DNA of 7,811 nucleotides from Desulfobacterales bacterium. Its GTDB lineage: Bacteria; Desulfobacterota; Desulfobacteria; Desulfobacterales; UBA5852. The notes under the pieces were generated by a model. It had not been told where the DNA came from. It made no database searches and saw nothing but the letters and a program-made list of their open reading frames with translations. Position 1 is the stretch's first letter; every line of letters begins with the position of its first letter. A program made the translations under genes and the position numbers. The stretch covers positions 1 through 7,811 of the forward strand of contig JAERRP010000079.1 of the NCBI GenBank assembly GCA_016735415.1, in the 5' to 3' direction. Of the stretch, positions 1 to 7,811 are shown piece after piece.

Positions 1-3000
1 CCGGCGCCGGAAACCCCGGCCGCGGCAGCGCCTCCGGCACCGACCGAGGGTTTAATCACCCACATCAAAACCATCGTCGCCGAGCAGACCGGTTACACGG
101 CCGACATGCTTGAGGACGAACTGGACCTCGAAGCCGACCTGGGCATCGACACCGTCAAACAGGTCGAAATCTTCGGCAAGGTCTCGGCCCACTTCGGGCT
201 CGACGTCCCCGAGGACCTCAAGCTCAACGACCTTAACACCATCGCCAAACTCGGCGGCTACCTGCAAGACAAGGTCGCCCAGGCACCGGACCCTTCGCCC
301 GCGGAAGCCCCGGCGCCCCCGGCCGGCCCTGACGCCACGTCGGATCTCCTGGCCGTCGTCAAAACCATCGTCGCTGAGCAGACCGGTTACACCGCCGACA
401 TGCTCGAGGACGAACTGGACCTCGAAGCCGATCTGGGCATCGACACCGTCAAACAGGTCGAAATCTTCGGCAAGGTTTCGGCCCACTTCGGGCTCGACGT
501 CCCCGAAGACCTCAAGCTCAACGACCTCAACACCATCGCCAAACTCGGCGGCTACCTCGGTGAAAAGGTCCAGAGTGACTCGGCCGGCACGTCCTTGACC
601 GGCACGGCCGCCGATGATGAAAGTCCGGCGCCGGTGCCAACTGATCCATCCGACAGCCCGGTCAAACGGATGATCGTCACAGCCGTAACGGCGGCAGCGG
701 CGACAGCCCGGAAGGGCTGGTTCAAGAACCGCCTGGTTTTGATCACCGCCGACCGGCACGGGTTCGCGCGGCGGATGGCGGAGCGAATCACAAACGACGG
801 TGGACAGCCGGTCATCATCGGCGATACCGGTTCCGACGACATCGCCTGCGCCTGGTCGGGCCCGGCCGCCGTCAATGCGGCCGTCAAAAAGATCAGGGCC
901 AAATTCGAAACCGTCGACGGCCTCCTGCATTTTCTCCCCCTGGACAGCGCCTTCGACGGCGAGGAACTTTCGCGCCCGGCGATCGACCGCCGGCTCAAGC
1001 GCTTCTTTTCCCTTGTCCAGGGACTCTACGGGGAATTGAACCGTCCCGAGGCCTTCATCGCCATGCCGGCCTTCAACGCCGCGGTGCTTCCTTACGGCGC
1101 CCCGGCCGGCCCCATTGACCCGGTATCCGCCGGGCTGGCCGGCCTGCTCAAAACGGTCAACAAGGAAATGCCGGATACGCTCGTGAAAATTGTGGACTTT
1201 GACGCCACGAAGGCGGCCGACCGTATGGACGCGGTGATCGACACCTTCATCCGCGAACTCTCATCCGGTGACCGGCGGGTGGAATGCGGGTATCACGGGG
1301 ACCATAAATGGGTCCTGCAGCTTGAGCCCGGGCGACCGGCGCACACCGAGGCCCTCGTCCGCCCGGACGATACGGTTCTGGTAACAGGGGGCGCACGCGG
1401 CATCACTTACGAAATTCTCAAGGCCCTGGTGCAGGCTCTGCCCGTACGCCTGGTAATCATGGGCCGCAGCGATGTCGAAGGCCTGGATCCGGCCCTGGCC
1501 GGACCCGATCTCAGTACGGCCGACATCATGGCCCGCCTCAAGACCGAGATGCAGGGTGCCAAACCCATCGAAATCCGCAACGCCCTGAACCGGGTGGTCA
1601 AACTGCGCGAATCCGCCGCCAATCTCGAGACCCTGAGGTCTTTGGGGGCCCGGGTGACCTATCACGCCGTCGACGTTACGGATGCGGCCGCCGTGCAGCG
1701 TGCGATCCAGGCGACGGACGGCGTCGATGTGCTCATCCATGCCGCCGGCATCGAAGAAAGCCAGATGATCCCCAAGAAAAAACCGGCCTCGTTTGACCGG
1801 GTCTTCGATACCAAGGTCTTCGGTCTGATGCACCTGCTGGCGGCGCTGGGCAAGAAGCCGCCGCACAGCCTGATGACCTTTTCATCGGTCACGGCCCGCT
1901 TTGGCAACGAGGGCCAGGTGGACTACACCGCGGCCAACGACATGATCGCCAAGATGCTGCTTGGCTTCCGCCGGCAGCACCCGGAAACGGCGGTCAAGAT
2001 CTTTGACTGGACCGCCTGGGAGGGGGCCGGCATGGCCACCAACGAAACCGTCAACAAAGTTCTGCGCAAACGCGGGCTGACCTTCCTGCCGCTGGCGGAC
2101 GGCGTGGCCCATTTCATGAACGAACTGGGCGACGGTCAGAACCCGGAGGTGGTTTTCTCCGGAATGGACCAGGCCTTCGACCTGGATGGTCTGATGGTTG
2201 TCGAAAAAGCCGCCAGCAGCGTCGTGGCCCCCTTTCTGGACCGGCTGGCGGAAGAGCGCGACGACCGCCGGGTGTACCAGCGTGTCCTGGACCTGCAGAG
2301 GGACCTGTTCCTGCTGGACCACAGCCGTGAAGACGTCCCCATTTTCCTGGGCGCCACGGGCATCGAGGCCATGGCGGAAGCCGCCGCCACCCTGGCCACC
2401 CCCGGCCACGCGCTGCGCGAACTCAAGGATTTCGCCATTCCCTACGGGATCAAAATCCTGAAGCAGCGGCCCAAGGAAATTATGATCGAAGCGGCCCGCA
2501 CGGCCAGGGGCGCAGACACCTTCCGGTGCCGGATCACATCCCAGTTCCGGAATAAGAAAGGTGTCGTCATGGGCACGCCCAAACAGCACTACAACGGCAC
2601 CTGCACCTTCGGGCCGGCCGAGGCTGAGCCGACCGCCATCACCGTGCCGGAGTTTTATCCGGTCAACTACGACGGCGACATCCAGGCCTTGCTGTACCAC
2701 CCCGCCCGGCTCTTCATGGACGGACTTTTCCGCACGGTGGAAGACATTCTCTCCTTTGAGGATGATCGGCTCATCTCGCGGATACACAGCACCAGTAACA
2801 AGCCCTTCTTTGCCGACGACCCCCGTCCGGCCTTTCTGACCGATGTGGCCGTTGTGGATGCCATGTTCCAGACCGGCGGCATGCTGGAAGTCATGACCAC
2901 CAACATCATCGTGCTGCCCTACACCATCGGGCGCATGCACTTTCATCAGCCCGTGGAAGCGGGTCGTGAATACCTGTGCATCACGCAGCGCATTGCCCGG

Positions 3001-3162
3001 GGACAGGAGACCAACACCTACCGGCTCCAGCTGGTGGCCCCCGACGGGAAATGCTATATCACCATCGAAGACTTCGAAATGGTGCGGGTGGACCGACTGA
3101 GCGAAGAGGACCAGATTGTCGATCAGCTCAATATCGACGAACGGCGCCAGCGCGCCTCCTGA
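1..3162 (+). CDS. PfaA-like type I polyketide/polyunsaturated fatty acid synthase, C-terminal part (ACP-ACP-KR-DH), 5' end outside window
   Basis: The reading frame is open from base 1, so the first internal Met (base 106) is not the start; 1053 residues are visible. Residues 1-20 are a Pro/Ala-rich linker. Two acyl carrier domains follow (about 22-88 and 118-186). An NADPH-dependent ketoreductase spans about 220-735, with a degenerate structural half and then a catalytic half: nucleotide motif TGGARGI at 462-468 and catalytic set K605, S629, Y642, N646 in a GQVDYTAAND context. A polyketide-type double-hotdog dehydratase fills about 755-1035, with H774 (LLDHSRED) and D953 (DAMFQ) as its expected catalytic pair. 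Domain order matches PfaA of PUFA synthases and, apart from the repeated ACP, enediyne PKSs. KS and AT are expected upstream. The protein should act in the cytosol, reducing and dehydrating beta-ketoacyl chains; no enoyl reductase is seen. Oddity: both ACPs have Thr at the cofactor-Ser position. The family assignment is firm; the product is unknown. Confidence 0.9.
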   Translation, partial: PAPETPAAAAPPAPTEGLITHIKTIVAEQTGYTADMLEDELDLEADLGIDTVKQVEIFGKVSAHFGLDVPEDLKLNDLNTIAKLGGYLQDKVAQAPDPSPAEAPAPPAGPDATSDLLAVVKTIVAEQTGYTADMLEDELDLEADLGIDTVKQVEIFGKVSAHFGLDVPEDLKLNDLNTIAKLGGYLGEKVQSDSAGTSLTGTAADDESPAPVPTDPSDSPVKRMIVTAVTAAAATARKGWFKNRLVLITADRHGFARRMAERITNDGGQPVIIGDTGSDDIACAWSGPAAVNAAVKKIRAKFETVDGLLHFLPLDSAFDGEELSRPAIDRRLKRFFSLVQGLYGELNRPEAFIAMPAFNAAVLPYGAPAGPIDPVSAGLAGLLKTVNKEMPDTLVKIVDFDATKAADRMDAVIDTFIRELSSGDRRVECGYHGDHKWVLQLEPGRPAHTEALVRPDDTVLVTGGARGITYEILKALVQALPVRLVIMGRSDVEGLDPALAGPDLSTADIMARLKTEMQGAKPIEIRNALNRVVKLRESAANLETLRSLGARVTYHAVDVTDAAAVQRAIQATDGVDVLIHAAGIEESQMIPKKKPASFDRVFDTKVFGLMHLLAALGKKPPHSLMTFSSVTARFGNEGQVDYTAANDMIAKMLLGFRRQHPETAVKIFDWTAWEGAGMATNETVNKVLRKRGLTFLPLADGVAHFMNELGDGQNPEVVFSGMDQAFDLDGLMVVEKAASSVVAPFLDRLAEERDDRRVYQRVLDLQRDLFLLDHSREDVPIFLGATGIEAMAEAAATLATPGHALRELKDFAIPYGIKILKQRPKEIMIEAARTARGADTFRCRITSQFRNKKGVVMGTPKQHYNGTCTFGPAEAEPTAITVPEFYPVNYDGDIQALLYHPARLFMDGLFRTVEDILSFEDDRLISRIHSTSNKPFFADDPRPAFLTDVAVVDAMFQTGGMLEVMTTNIIVLPYTIGRMHFHQPVEAGREYLCITQRIARGQETNTYRLQLVAPDGKCYITIEDFEMVRVDRLSEEDQIVDQLNIDERRQRAS
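67..558 (+). repeat. Tandem acyl carrier protein domains, near-identical 198-bp units at 67-264 and 361-558
   Basis: The two units are 294 bases apart and encode the same 66 residues, from KTIVAEQTGY to the end of helix IV. I count eight nucleotide differences, all at third codon positions and all synonymous. The units align without gaps to the PfaA-type ACP core, whose usual cofactor motif is LGIDS followed by IKRVEIL. Here it reads LGIDT followed by VKQVEIF, with the Thr codons at 151-153 and 445-447. A Pro/Ala/Asp linker of about 30 residues joins the units. A similar linker runs off the 5' edge of the window, so further ACP copies upstream are likely. Confidence 0.93.
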
Positions 3163-3248: not shown

Positions 3249-4019
3249 ATGCCTCTCAATGATGCGATTATCGAAATCGACTGGGATCAGGTCCCCGCCT
3301 GTGGTCTAAGCCAGACAAAAAGCCGTTTGGCGATCGGGTTTGTGCCCCTCCAGGCGTTCCTGCAGCACTACCTGCCCGCCCTTCCCACCGAGGACCTGCG
3401 CCAGGCCCGTCCCCGGGCGGTCGCGGCCGAGGATTTCTCCCGGCCCCTGCTGGCGCCGATGGAACTCGCCCGGGTCAATGCCTTTAAAAGCCTGAAACGC
3501 CAGATCGAATGGATGGCCGGCCGCCTGGCGGCCAAAACCCTGGCCCGGTCTCTCGGCGCTTCCGGCGACGACATCACGGCGATCCGGATCGCCTATCGGC
3601 CCGAAGGCGCCCCCTATCTGGATCGCCGGCCGGACCTGTCCCTCTCCATTTCTCACGCTCACGACTACGCCGTGGCCGGCCTCAGCCGCGATGCGGATAC
3701 GATTCTGGGCCTGGATCTCGAAAAACAGCAACCCCTCGATATCGAACTGATGCTGCGCACGGCCTTTTCAGACCGGGAACGCCGCCGCCTCGACCCCGCC
3801 GACCGGGATCGGTTCTTCGAATGCTGGACCCTCAAGGAAGCCTACCTGAAATATCTGGGTAAAGGCTTCCGCGAAAGCCTCAAACAGATCGAAATCCTGG
3901 ACAACTTCGGGCTCTATCATCACGGACAACCGGTCCCCCGGGTGGCCGTCCAGATCCTGAAGCCCTTCCCGGCATATACCCTTTCCATTGTCTCCGGGCC
4001 ACAGCCGACGTCCTTATAA
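3249..4019 (+). CDS. 4'-phosphopantetheinyl transferase, Sfp type
   Basis: This 256-residue cytosolic enzyme would move the 4'-phosphopantetheine arm of coenzyme A onto carrier proteins. The family hallmarks are present: a KRQIEWMAGRLAAK helix around residues 82-95, RPEGAPYL, SISH with H136, the Mg-binding LGLDLE segment (D156, E158), and W193-T-L-K196-E197-A198-x-x-K201. These match the Sfp signature of (I/V)G(I/V/L)D followed about 40 residues later by WxxKEAxxK. The start is constrained: an in-frame TAA sits at 3240-3242, so ATG 3249 is the first possible ATG. Only a weak purine tract (AAGAAG) precedes it, so translation may be modest or coupled. It lies 86 bases after the PfaA-like gene on the same strand, which makes that synthase's ACPs its likely substrate, as with PfaE. 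In enediyne PKSs the equivalent domain is fused to the synthase C terminus. Confidence 0.92.
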   Translation: MPLNDAIIEIDWDQVPACGLSQTKSRLAIGFVPLQAFLQHYLPALPTEDLRQARPRAVAAEDFSRPLLAPMELARVNAFKSLKRQIEWMAGRLAAKTLARSLGASGDDITAIRIAYRPEGAPYLDRRPDLSLSISHAHDYAVAGLSRDADTILGLDLEKQQPLDIELMLRTAFSDRERRRLDPADRDRFFECWTLKEAYLKYLGKGFRESLKQIEILDNFGLYHHGQPVPRVAVQILKPFPAYTLSIVSGPQPTSL

Positions 4020-4228: not shown

Positions 4229-6016
4229 ATGACCCGGAAGCACCTGGCGGCCATGATCGGAGATAGCTGCCATCGTTACCGCCGCCACATTGCCATGCGC
4301 TATAAAACCGACGACGTCTGGCAGACAATCACCTATGGTGAGCTCGGGGAGAAAATTCGACAGGTTGCCAACGCCCTGATCGATCTGGGCATCCAGCCCG
4401 GCGACATGATCGGCATTTTTTCTCAGAACCGCGCCGAATGGACCATCGCTGATTTCGGTATCTTGAGCGCCGGCGCTGTGAGCGTACCCATCTACACCAC
4501 CAACACCGCCACCCAGGTCGAGTATGTCGTGCGCGATGCCGATCTGCGCGCCCTGTTTGTGGGAGATCGCAATCAACTTGCCAAAGTGCAGTCTTTTGCC
4601 GCACAGTATGCCAACCTGCAAACCATCGTCACTTTCGATGACATAGGCGGCGGCACCGCTGATGCCTTGCCGGGCTTTGAAGACCTGCTGGCCAAAGGTG
4701 CCGAATGCGACCACGCCGCTGAAAGCGACCGGCGTATCCGGGATACCGCTTCGGAGAGCCTGGCCAGCATCATCTACACTTCCGGCACCACAGGCGAACC
4801 CAAGGGGGTGATGCTCAGCCATGCCAATTTCTTCCATCAGATCGCGGCCGTGGATGCCAATTTCGATGTCGGCCCCGCGGACCGCTCCCTGTGTTTTCTG
4901 CCGCTGAGCCACGTGTACGAACGAAGCTGGTCCTACTATGTCTTCAGCTGCGGAGCCCAGAACAACTATATCCAGAACCCAAAAAAAGTCATTCAATACC
5001 TGGGTGAAGTGCGGCCCACTGCCATGGTGAGCGTGCCGCGGCTGTATGAGAAGATCTACGCCGCGGTCATGGACAAGCTCGAGAAAGCCTCACCGGGCAA
5101 AAAGCGTCTTTTCAAATGGGCCCTCAATGTGGCCCGTCGCCAGGCCGGGGCCCGCCAGGCCGGACGCTCTCCCGGTCTCGGTTTGCGCATGGCTCACCGG
5201 CTGGCCGACCGCCTGGTGCTGCGCAAACTCCGCTCTATCGTGGGCGGTCAGAAAAACTTCTTTTCAGCCGGCGGCGCCCCCCTCTCCAGGAACATCGAGG
5301 AATTTTTTCTGGCCACGGGACTACTGATCTGCCAGGGCTACGGGCTGACCGAAACCGCCCCCATGATCACCTGCAACGCGCCCCACGACTTCAAGTTCGG
5401 CACTGTGGGCAAGCCTGTCCCCGGATGTGAGGTTGAAATCGGGGCTCAGAATGAAATCCTGGTGAAGGGCCCCAACGTCATGATGGGCTACTACAAAAAG
5501 CCGGAGGCCACGGCGGCGGTCCTGGTGGACGGGTGGTTTCGTACCGGCGACGTGGGCCGGATCGATGCCGGCGGCTTTCTGGTCATCACCGACCGTATCA
5601 AGGACCTGATCATCACTTCGGGAGGGAAGAACATCGCCCCCCAGCGCATCGAAACCGCGGTCGGGCGCGACCACTATATCGAACAGATCACCACCATCGG
5701 CGACCGCCGCAAATATGTCAGCGCCCTGATCGTCCCGTCTTATGAGGCGCTTGAAGACTACGCCCGCGAAAAAGGGCTGCGCTACCAGTCCCGGGAGGCC
5801 CTCCTTCTGCATCCGGAGATTGTGGCCTTCTATCGCGCACGCGTCGATCGCCAATCAACGGAGTTGGCCGGTTTTGAAACCATCAAAACCTTTACCCTGC
5901 TGCCGAATGAATTCACACAGGAAAGCGGGGAAATCACCCCTACCCAGAAAATTCGACGCAAAGTGATTGAGAAACACTACCGTCGCGAAATCGACGCCAT
6001 GTACCCCGACGATTGA
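4229..6016 (+). CDS. Long-chain fatty acid--CoA ligase (AMP-forming, FadD15/Faa-like)
   Basis: This 595-residue enzyme of the ANL superfamily would activate a fatty acid with ATP to acyl-AMP and then to acyl-CoA. Motifs appear in the expected order: phosphate-binding loop T184-SGTTGEP-K192 followed by GVMLSH; FFSAGGAPLSR; YGLTETAP (Y371, E375); the GWFRTGD signature (D441); TDRIKD (D455, R456); and a C-terminal TPTQKIRRK whose K574 is in the position of the catalytic lysine for adenylation. The length and the insert at about 280-340 fit the long-chain class (near 600 residues) rather than the shorter medium-chain or acetyl-CoA synthetases. It has no signal peptide or obvious membrane helix, so it is probably cytosolic or peripheral at the membrane. 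It follows the synthase and transferase on the same strand but after a 209-base gap, so it may have its own promoter. A likely role is activating the synthase product or a starter acid; chain length cannot be read from the sequence. Confidence 0.93.
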   Translation: MTRKHLAAMIGDSCHRYRRHIAMRYKTDDVWQTITYGELGEKIRQVANALIDLGIQPGDMIGIFSQNRAEWTIADFGILSAGAVSVPIYTTNTATQVEYVVRDADLRALFVGDRNQLAKVQSFAAQYANLQTIVTFDDIGGGTADALPGFEDLLAKGAECDHAAESDRRIRDTASESLASIIYTSGTTGEPKGVMLSHANFFHQIAAVDANFDVGPADRSLCFLPLSHVYERSWSYYVFSCGAQNNYIQNPKKVIQYLGEVRPTAMVSVPRLYEKIYAAVMDKLEKASPGKKRLFKWALNVARRQAGARQAGRSPGLGLRMAHRLADRLVLRKLRSIVGGQKNFFSAGGAPLSRNIEEFFLATGLLICQGYGLTETAPMITCNAPHDFKFGTVGKPVPGCEVEIGAQNEILVKGPNVMMGYYKKPEATAAVLVDGWFRTGDVGRIDAGGFLVITDRIKDLIITSGGKNIAPQRIETAVGRDHYIEQITTIGDRRKYVSALIVPSYEALEDYAREKGLRYQSREALLLHPEIVAFYRARVDRQSTELAGFETIKTFTLLPNEFTQESGEITPTQKIRRKVIEKHYRREIDAMYPDD

Positions 6017-6191: not shown

Positions 6192-6396
6192 GTCCCAGCT
6201 GACGGATGGCCGCCCGTAGCGACTATAGCGCTCTTGTTTCTTGCCCTACCCGCTCTTCTCCAGCACATTTGGCCTGCGAGACTGCACCGTTGCCAGCCAG
6301 CGGCTATATGATCCGTTACCTGTGGTTTTTTCTAAAACCTGATGATCCTGTATACGTTGCGCCCGGAGGGGACAGCGCCAAGTCTCTCCCGGATCG

Positions 6397-6435
6397 GCTT
6401 GTGCGTATGCGGCCTGTGGCCGCATACGCACAAGC
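6397..6435. repeat. Perfect 18-bp inverted repeat with 3-base loop
   Basis: The arms 6397-6414 and 6418-6435 are perfectly complementary (GCTTGTGCGTATGCGGCC against its reverse complement) around a TGT loop. The stem can be extended by a G-T wobble and one further C-G pair. Neither strand has a T-run immediately after it, so it is not a classical terminator. It resembles a REP-type palindrome, a structured element in a leader or small RNA, or a binding site for a dimeric protein. Confidence 0.8.
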
Positions 6436-6550
6436 TGCGGTCAGAGTGTGTTTGTTTGTCCATCTCCTGTTACCCCGCCTCCGCCGGATACCGGCCCGGC
6501 CGGACCCGCTGGTGAGGGCGACAGGCATTGCCAACCGTTACATAAAAAGA

Positions 6551-6560
6551 AAGGGGAGGT
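6551..6560 (+). promoter_or_regulatory. Ribosome binding site of the dodecin gene
   Basis: The purine tract AAGGGGAGGT, containing GGAGGT at 6555-6560, lies five bases before ATG 6566. It decides the start against an in-frame upstream ATG at 6206, whose extra 120 residues look non-coding. Confidence 0.85.
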
Positions 6561-6565
6561 GCGTC

Positions 6566-6781
6566 ATGGCCGAAAGCATTTACAAGGTAATCGATTTGAT
6601 AGGAACGAGTCCGACATCCTGGGAAGAGGCTGCGCGGCAGGCGGTGGAAACCGCCGGGAAAAACATTCGCGATCTGCGGGTGGCCGAAGTGATCAAACTG
6701 GACATGAAAGTGGAAAACGGCAAGGTAACGGCCTTCCGGGCCCGGGTCAACATTTCCTTCAAATACGAGGGCCAGAATTAG
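6566..6781 (+). CDS. Dodecin family protein lacking the flavin-binding Trp and Gln
   Basis: The 71-residue product has the normal dodecin length and layout: an N-terminal beta strand (IYKVIDLIGTS), a helix starting at SWEEAA and running to about residue 36, and a two-strand hairpin ending in VNISFKYEG. Dodecins assemble into hollow cytosolic dodecamers; characterised ones store or buffer flavins. In Halobacterium dodecin, flavin is sandwiched by W36 within an MVWAEV segment and contacted by Q55. Here the matching segment is LRVAEV with V39, and the Gln position is R58 (AFRAR). The only Trp, W19, lies at the helix start and is not the ligand position. I recall many W-less dodecins with this RVAEV signature, whose ligand I cannot state. 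It follows a long non-coding leader and converges on htpG. The fold assignment is strong; flavin binding is doubtful. Confidence 0.92.
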   Translation: MAESIYKVIDLIGTSPTSWEEAARQAVETAGKNIRDLRVAEVIKLDMKVENGKVTAFRARVNISFKYEGQN

Positions 6782-6897: not shown

Positions 6898-7811
6898 TCA
6901 GTTCAGGGCCGTACTCATCAAATCCCCAATCAGCTTGCCGAACTGGGACGGATTTTCGACTTTACCGCCTTCGCCGATCACCGCCAGGTCGTAGAGCAGT
7001 CGGCTGTAGTCTCCCAGCCGGGCGTCGCCCTGATCCTTTTCGAAAATCTGCTTGATTTTCGCCATCACGGGATGCTCGGTATTCAGCTCCAGCACCCGTT
7101 TGGTAGCGGGCATGTCCTTGCCGGCGGATTTCATTATTTTAGCCATATAGCCGCTCATATCGTGGGCATCCCCCGAAAGGCAGGCCACGGAATCCAGCAG
7201 GCGGGAAGACGGTTTGACTTCCTTGACCTGATCCTGAAGCGCCCTGCGAATGAAACCGAACAGATCCTTGTACGGCTCGCCCTTGTCCTTGGTATCCTCC
7301 GCGTCGATATCCAGATCCCCCTTCTCGGCGCTCTTGAGGGATTTGCCGTCGTACTCCGTCAGGGACTGCACCACCCATTCGTCCACCGGGTCCGTCATGA
7401 GCAGCACTTCAAAATTCCTGGCCTTCAGGCGTTCCAGATGCGGGCTGTTCACCAGGGTTGCCGGGCTGTCTCCGGTCAGGTAGTAGATCTCCTTCTGCGC
7501 TTCCGGCATGCGCTCCACATATTCCTTCAGGGAAACCCAGGCACCATCTGAGGTGGTCGTCTTGAAGCGGGCCAGATCCGCCAGTTTGGTCTGGCTGGCA
7601 GAGTCCGTGTAAATCCCGATTTTAAGGATCGGGCCAAATTCGTCGTAGAACTTATCGTAATCGTCTTTTTCCAAACCCTTGAGAAGATCGAAAAGCTTCT
7701 TGACCAGATTTTTACGGATGTTGAGCACCAGTCGGTCCTGCTGCAGGATTTCGCGGCTGATGTTCAGGTTGAGATCGGGCGCGTCCACGACCCCCTTGAC
7801 GAAGCTGAAGT
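6898..7811 (-). CDS. htpG: Chaperone protein HtpG (bacterial Hsp90), C-terminal part; 5' end outside window
   Basis: About 304 codons are visible, reading from the right edge to TGA at 6900-6898. The frame continues past the window edge as FSFVKGVVDA, so the GTG at 7788 is internal. The sequence follows E. coli HtpG from its middle-domain LRFVRG segment: LNISREILQQ, FYDEFGPILKIG, VSLKEYVERMPEAQKEIYYLTG, SPHLERLK, FEVLLMTDPVDEWVVQSLTEYDGK, and then the C-terminal dimerisation domain (RLLDSVACLSGDAHDMSGYMAKIMKS, LELNTEHPVM, RLLYDLAVI). The N-terminal ATPase domain and the start of the middle domain lie outside. HtpG is an ATP-driven cytosolic chaperone for late-stage client folding. As in other bacterial forms, there is no C-terminal MEEVD tail. 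It converges on dodecin, from which it is separated by 116 bases and a terminator. I see no defect in the visible part. Confidence 0.97.
   Translation of the reverse strand, partial: FSFVKGVVDAPDLNLNISREILQQDRLVLNIRKNLVKKLFDLLKGLEKDDYDKFYDEFGPILKIGIYTDSASQTKLADLARFKTTTSDGAWVSLKEYVERMPEAQKEIYYLTGDSPATLVNSPHLERLKARNFEVLLMTDPVDEWVVQSLTEYDGKSLKSAEKGDLDIDAEDTKDKGEPYKDLFGFIRRALQDQVKEVKPSSRLLDSVACLSGDAHDMSGYMAKIMKSAGKDMPATKRVLELNTEHPVMAKIKQIFEKDQGDARLGDYSRLLYDLAVIGEGGKVENPSQFGKLIGDLMSTALN

Follow-up and report, generated by a model that had tools for sequence, protein, structure and literature searches.

Threonine at the phosphopantetheine site in a widespread family of PfaA-like synthases, probably primed by a co-inherited phosphopantetheinyl transferase

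The carriers of growing fatty chains are normally primed on serine, and, to our knowledge, the known substrates of Sfp-type phosphopantetheinyl transferases (PPTases) carry serine. In the available parts of a 2016 review (PMC4882568) and a 2026 survey (PMC13291983), serine is named as the attachment residue. The E. coli acyl carrier protein (ACP) variant S36T was not modified by 4'-PP and was non-functional, according to the accessible sections of PMC3340395, and the Ser38-to-Thr change in spinach led to loss of function, as quoted from older work in the accessible text of PMC9310384. Threonine was thus not accepted by the PPTases examined in these cases. In the part of PMC13343975 at hand, S36T serves as a variant that no longer binds IscS, and natural threonine is not mentioned; the word threonine is absent from the available main text of PMC9027781. 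No report of threonine-linked phosphopantetheine was found in the literature covered, which lay mostly outside the subscription journals.

The closest described systems are tandem-ACP synthases. In PfaA (TIGR02813), the C-terminal part likewise has the order of tandem ACPs, ketoreductase (KR), and dehydratase (DH). The secondary lipid synthases of Shulse and Allen (2011), whose products are given as uncharacterised in the accessible text (PMC3098273), include Type R, from Acidobacteria, Elusimicrobia, and Chloroflexi, with the order KS-MAT-CLF-ACP(3-6)-KR and a downstream PPTase, and Type S, from Desulfobacterium autotrophicum; neither threonine nor serine occurs as a word in its main text, as far as this was available. 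In the chitinimine-type hybrid PUFA-synthase clusters, the PfaA homologue has tandem ACPs as in the synthase studied here, whereas all ACPs of ChtnD keep the conserved serine in place of the threonine found here, according to the portion of PMC13291983 available.

Here, we analyzed a 7,811-nucleotide stretch of DNA from a Desulfobacterales bacterium (the window; Table 1). TIGR02813 is the best NCBIfam match for both the synthase piece in the window and its 3,915-residue relative P0002, with scores of 287.5 bits for the partial window protein and 906.3 bits for full-length P0002, below the cut-off of 1010.1 bits. The two types differ at the ACP site, which is Ser-IKR (LGIDS-IKR) in PfaA and Thr-VKQ (LGIDT-VKQ) in the window, the serine motif being that of the surveyed loci and the original prediction and not a curated one. 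P0002 also differs from PfaA in that it fuses an NMO/FabK-like ER, three KS stretches, and an AT in one chain; two nitronate-monooxygenase/FabK-like stretches occupy its N-terminus (residues 1-590). As far as the accessible text of PMC3098273 goes, the taxa of Type R and Type S fit those of the threonine synthases, and the domain order is compatible with Type R, of which the window could show only the 3' part: among the relatives, P0096, a KQAE-type protein, matches this order, and P0002, of the KQVE type, adds the ER and a third KS stretch.

Table 1 Features of the window
Feature	Position	Strand	Basis and remarks
PfaA-like type I synthase, 3' part (ACP-ACP-KR-DH)	1..3162	+	Open frame 1, Pfam domains
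ACP unit 1	46..276	+	Pfam PP-binding stretch
ACC codon (Thr), phosphopantetheine site of ACP 1	151..153	+
ACP unit 2	340..570	+	Pfam PP-binding stretch; structure model with mean pLDDT 89.6
ACC codon (Thr), phosphopantetheine site of ACP 2	445..447	+
Ketoreductase (KR) domain	1372..2022	+	PF08659, residues 458-674
PKS-type dehydratase region	2230..3105	+	PF21089, residues 744-847 (below curated cut-off); PF14765, residues 907-1035
Sfp-type PPTase	3249..4019	+	PF01648; starts 86 bases past the synthase stop
Long-chain acyl-CoA ligase (AMP-binding)	4229..6016	+	PF00501
Dodecin gene, downstream	6206-6781	+	Start probably near 6569, because the dodecin domain occupies only residues 125-188 of the listed ORF
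Hsp90/HtpG gene, cut by the window end	6898-7809	-

Both ACPs of the window read LGIDTVKQVEIF, with threonine where the phosphopantetheine serine is expected, and the two ACC codons named in the original prediction were confirmed. PF00550 matched the window synthase twice (58.6 bits against a curated cut-off of 20.8), and the serine that defines its phosphopantetheine site is threonine in both matches. The predicted structure and a fold search gave an ACP fold, in which helix II begins with the threonine, at the normal place of the serine. Compared with the serine type, the adjoining changes are I-to-V and R-to-Q, both within the one motif. Threonine at this site was seen in none of the five alignments read of the 49 matches to solved structures. 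Further downstream in the window, the acyl-CoA ligase is, from its gene position, a possible partner for activation of the acyl product, and a dodecin gene likewise lies downstream in loci L025 and L032.

When the two-ACP stretch of the window was used to scan the genome collection, 50 loci were obtained. LGIDTVKQ occurred in 38 of them, with 103 motifs in total, and all four threonine codons are in use (ACG 49, ACC 25, ACT 19, and ACA 10), so that the third base varies and the residue stays the same. Serine in the VKQ context (LGIDSVKQ) was found in two Firmicutes loci, L029 (Paenibacillus oralis) and L038 (Butyrivibrio sp. M55), which indicates that VKQ and threonine are not fully linked; these are perhaps an intermediate form, and a PPTase is near the synthase in both. 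The motif of L042 is LGVDSVQRAE, and 9 of the 50 loci gave no ACP motif. The upstream part of the window gene lies outside the window, and the whole gene was present in 16 of the 50 loci, encoding about 3,600-4,100 residues in most and split into two frames in L003. By Pfam, L009 and L003 contain NMO/FabK-like ER stretches, three KS stretches, AT, ACPs, KR, and DH, and L016 has a similar set with no ER detected. The synthase frame is broken or shifted near the ACP array in L003 (~11338-11370, Desulfoluna spongiiphila), L037 (~10692-10922, a Desulfotignum MAG), and L107 (~523-536); the relative P0003 has a single unbroken frame.

Two protein sets were drawn from larger searches. For set 1, 5.8 billion proteins were searched with the ACP array of Desulfospira joergensenii, and in the best 120 of 4,957 matches 532 of 536 ACP domains had threonine and 4 had serine, a count that leans to threonine because the search words include GIDTV. 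For set 2, the query was a Chloroflexota KR region, so that no ACP was scored, and in the best 120 of 2,413 matches all 427 ACP domains had threonine, with V at +1, Q at +3, and A at +4 invariant; each set contains its own query, and P0096 and P0115 are common to both. The named members among these best 120 of set 2 belong to Chloroflexota and Acidobacteriota lineages, and those in the 50-locus scan and set 1 further include Spirochaetes, one Bacteroidales MAG, Myxococcales, Elusimicrobiales, and Thermoplasmatota archaea. When the set 1 proteins and the loci are pooled, the site is threonine in 635 domains and serine in 9, with no third residue in the 644 domains, a count in which proteins and loci overlap and for which the ACP profile was trained on this family; serine is thus accepted occasionally. 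In the best 120 of 4,957, it occurs in one of five ACPs of P0008 and one of six of P0094 (both GIDSVKQVE), and in an extra, odd ACP past the threonine array in P0036 (LGINSIKMVE, residue 3156) and P0039 (LGIDSMKMVE, residue 3253). The other domains keep their motifs in the best 120 of each set: the AT GHSxG motif in 116/120 of set 1 and 115/120 of set 2, at least one KS Cys motif in 113/120 and 119/120, and the KR YxxAN-type motif in 108/120 and 120/120, respectively.

The original prediction had considered that the cargo might ride on a serine-bearing ACP elsewhere in the same synthase. Among the best 120 of each set, such an ACP was found in 4/120 proteins of set 1 and 0/120 of set 2, and most of these synthases contain no serine carrier. 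A carrier hidden from the motif search was also rejected, as the Pfam PP-binding stretches equal the threonine motifs in number in L009 (four) and in L016, P0103, and P0096 (six each); the check was less clean for P0071 (one Pfam stretch against five motifs) and L003 (four against five).

Searches blind to the ACP residue were performed with the KR-DH part of the window as the query in 247, 149, and 11 genomes, and gave 53 loci. Matches came from 22 of the 247 genomes in the phylum of G005 (Desulfospira), 8 of the 149 in the phylum of the spirochaete G007, and 10 of the 11 chosen since the ACP scan had already reached them; the two large samples were drawn by phylum around centre genomes known for threonine arrays. 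The loci include only the ACPs nearest the KR, not full arrays. Sixteen had Thr-VKQ only, 25 Ser-IKR/K, one serine plus alanine (L118), one Ser-VQR (L121), and 10 no motif; in the stretch near the KR, threonine and serine ACPs occurred together in none of the 53. Ten of the 16 threonine loci repeat earlier genes, and six (L077, L078, L106, L107, L108, and L110) are new. Both a threonine array (GIDTVKQ) and a serine array (GIDSIKR/K) are present in nine genomes (G005, G010, G385, G411, G412, G413, G414, G415, and G417); thus, neither base composition nor a genome-wide quirk explains the difference between the two residues. A KR tree with the ACPs excluded (75 rows kept of 193 extracted, after near-duplicate, unlabelled, and some near-identical rows were dropped) requires 2 changes of the Thr/Ser label by a quick method, compared with a shuffled mean of 21.2, indicating that threonine is old and was kept through deep divergence. 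The two protein sets, the genome loci, and this tree together bear out the suggestion that the threonine is a widespread subfamily trait, and the Chloroflexi and deltaproteobacterial members suggested in the original prediction were found among the relatives. In L118, from a Phycisphaerae MAG, the alanine ACP (position 211) lies beside a serine copy and is probably a dead carrier. G412 has two close KR-DH loci on contigs C226 and C320 (L122 and L113), both accompanied by a separate PPTase of the clade described below; at the second locus, the stretch covered does not extend to the ACP.

The PPTase next to the window synthase matched PF01648 with 51.6 bits (cut-off, 25) and has the conserved His, Asp/Glu, and WxxKE residues. 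Its predicted structure (mean pLDDT 92.7) gave human AASDHPPT (2cg5) and Sfp (4mrt) as the best Foldseek matches, to which it is alike in fold and catalytic residues at 19-22% identity in the structural matches. PPTases were gathered by PF01648 searches in 28 genomes, and a tree of 58 was built, in which Sfp and AASDHPPT were outside the comparison; duplicates and pieces of <90 residues (including L134, the single PPTase of G408) were omitted, as was L100, a PPTase domain in a 2,676-residue frame with no readable ACP. The window PPTase belongs to its own clade of 19 (support, 98/100), together with PPTases from 17 genomes with a KQVE-type threonine synthase, two from G412 and one from each of the others. 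The members either adjoin this synthase or sit elsewhere in the genome. The clade is represented in 17 of the 20 searched genomes with a KQVE-type synthase whose threonine was read, and in none of the six others on the tree (one-sided Fisher p of about 4e-4), a value that is indicative only, since the genomes are related and non-randomly drawn. Seven comparison genomes with no KQVE-type synthase seen were searched, of which G408 was lost to the length filter; G013 and G014 were so scored from the 50-locus scan alone, and G416 was omitted as its ACP motif is unreadable. The three KQVE-type genomes that lack the clade are G008, whose sole PPTase adjoins its KQAE-type synthase, G012, and G411, in which the PF01648 search found no PPTase at all.

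As to gene position, a PPTase adjoins the threonine synthase in the window and in L001, L010, L016, L022, L025, L032, and L035, and all five KQAE-type synthases of the genome survey have one adjacent (L106, L107, L108, and L110) or fused (L078, at the C-terminus, in genome G116 from the phylum of Desulfospira). Within the flanks covered, a PPTase occurs in just four of the 16 loci with the complete gene (L001, L010, L016, and L032), which counts against a strict operon link. Among the set 1 proteins listed, four threonine synthases (P0054, P0094, P0102, and P0103) carry a precomputed PPTase domain fused at the C-terminus, and two of them are named as Thermoplasmatota. The archaeal P0103 has the order ER-KS-AT-KS-ACPx6-KR-DH-PPTase with threonine in all six ACPs, and P0094 has five threonine ACPs and one serine ACP. 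The catalytic His, Asp, and Lys-Glu of the PPTases are kept in 19/19 and 9/9, and the second acidic residue is Glu in 18/19 (one Gln) and 9/9; this comparison of catalytic residues identified none that accounts for acceptance of threonine. In G002 (Desulfoluna spongiiphila), G009, and G010, which contain serine carriers, no PPTase other than a clade member was detected, a hint that this enzyme may act on both residues; another possible cause is that genes were overlooked in the draft genomes.

Here, we propose that the threonine ACPs are working carriers, which probably bear phosphopantetheine on threonine instead of serine and are primed by a partner PPTase, as judged from sequence comparison. 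The PPTase, whether encoded beside the synthase gene, as a fused domain, or at another locus, would transfer the arm from CoA to the hydroxyl of the threonine that begins helix II. On the tandem array, the chain would then pass through repeated reducing rounds of KS, AT, KR, and DH, joined in the relatives by the FabK/PfaD-like ER of the same polypeptide, and the product may be a long-chain acyl lipid. Modification by the neighbouring transferase, one of the two options in the original prediction, is favoured because threonine synthases are inherited together with a PPTase or fused to one. Conservation of the hydroxyl, the multi-copy arrays, the AT and KS motifs, and a PPTase that travels with or is fused to the synthase all argue for a threonine-primed carrier. 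The failed S36T and Ser38-to-Thr mutants would then explain why a special PPTase is needed.

The E. coli mutant also speaks for the other option, in which the threonine ACPs are never primed and serve in docking or as structural units, with the chain on a separate serine ACP such as the housekeeping AcpP or a serine array elsewhere. Ser-to-Thr is reported to block priming of the E. coli ACP (available part of PMC3340395), serine carriers were found in 4/4 genomes checked, and nine genomes with a threonine array also have a serine PfaA-type array. Dead carriers are expected to drift off hydroxyl residues, as the alanine of L118 illustrates, but the site is solely threonine or serine in the 644 domains and always threonine in the 427 from the best 120 of 2,413; moreover, the arrays are maintained at up to eight copies, and PPTases adjoin or are fused to the synthases. 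We therefore regard the absence of priming as unlikely. Strict conservation of the hydroxyl in the absence of a threonine-accepting PPTase would be explained if the threonine bore another group, for example a direct acyl or phosphate, and the PPTase served other carriers. This leaves the co-inheritance and fusion of PPTases with intact catalytic residues unaccounted for, and is very improbable also because KS and AT chemistry relies on thiol carriers.

Least credible of all, with practically no weight left, is an error of sequencing or assembly, or a local mutation. The two window ACPs are near-copies (208 of 231 DNA positions, or 90%, and 69 of 77 protein positions are identical), so that the window by itself records one event and not two independent changes. 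The original prediction had taken the two identical changes as evidence against sequencing error; this argument is weak for that reason, and its conclusion holds on the evidence of other genomes. A sequencing error or private mutation is contradicted by the same threonine across many genomes and proteins: it is seen in hundreds of domains from many sources, with all four codons, and in the named strains Desulfospira joergensenii and Desulfoluna spongiiphila.

It is fairly likely that threonine is a second, ancient attachment residue, fixed in one large group of iterative lipid synthases that spans several bacterial phyla and Thermoplasmatota, with threonine-accepting PPTases and apart from the serine carriers in the cell; some clade PPTases, in G002, G009, and G010, may prime both residues. 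The rule of serine-only attachment probably has a widespread exception. A threonine array might have the advantage of being spared by the housekeeping enzymes that act on serine carriers to prime or strip them. The teaching, annotation, and engineering of carrier proteins all assume that serine bears the arm. If the proposal is true, rules that call threonine carrier domains inactive are wrong, and the PPTase–carrier pair could serve as an orthogonal labelling tool, as AcpS-type enzymes might not cross-prime. It would also give access to lipid pathways so far unstudied in sulfate reducers, spirochaetes, Chloroflexota, Acidobacteriota, and archaea.
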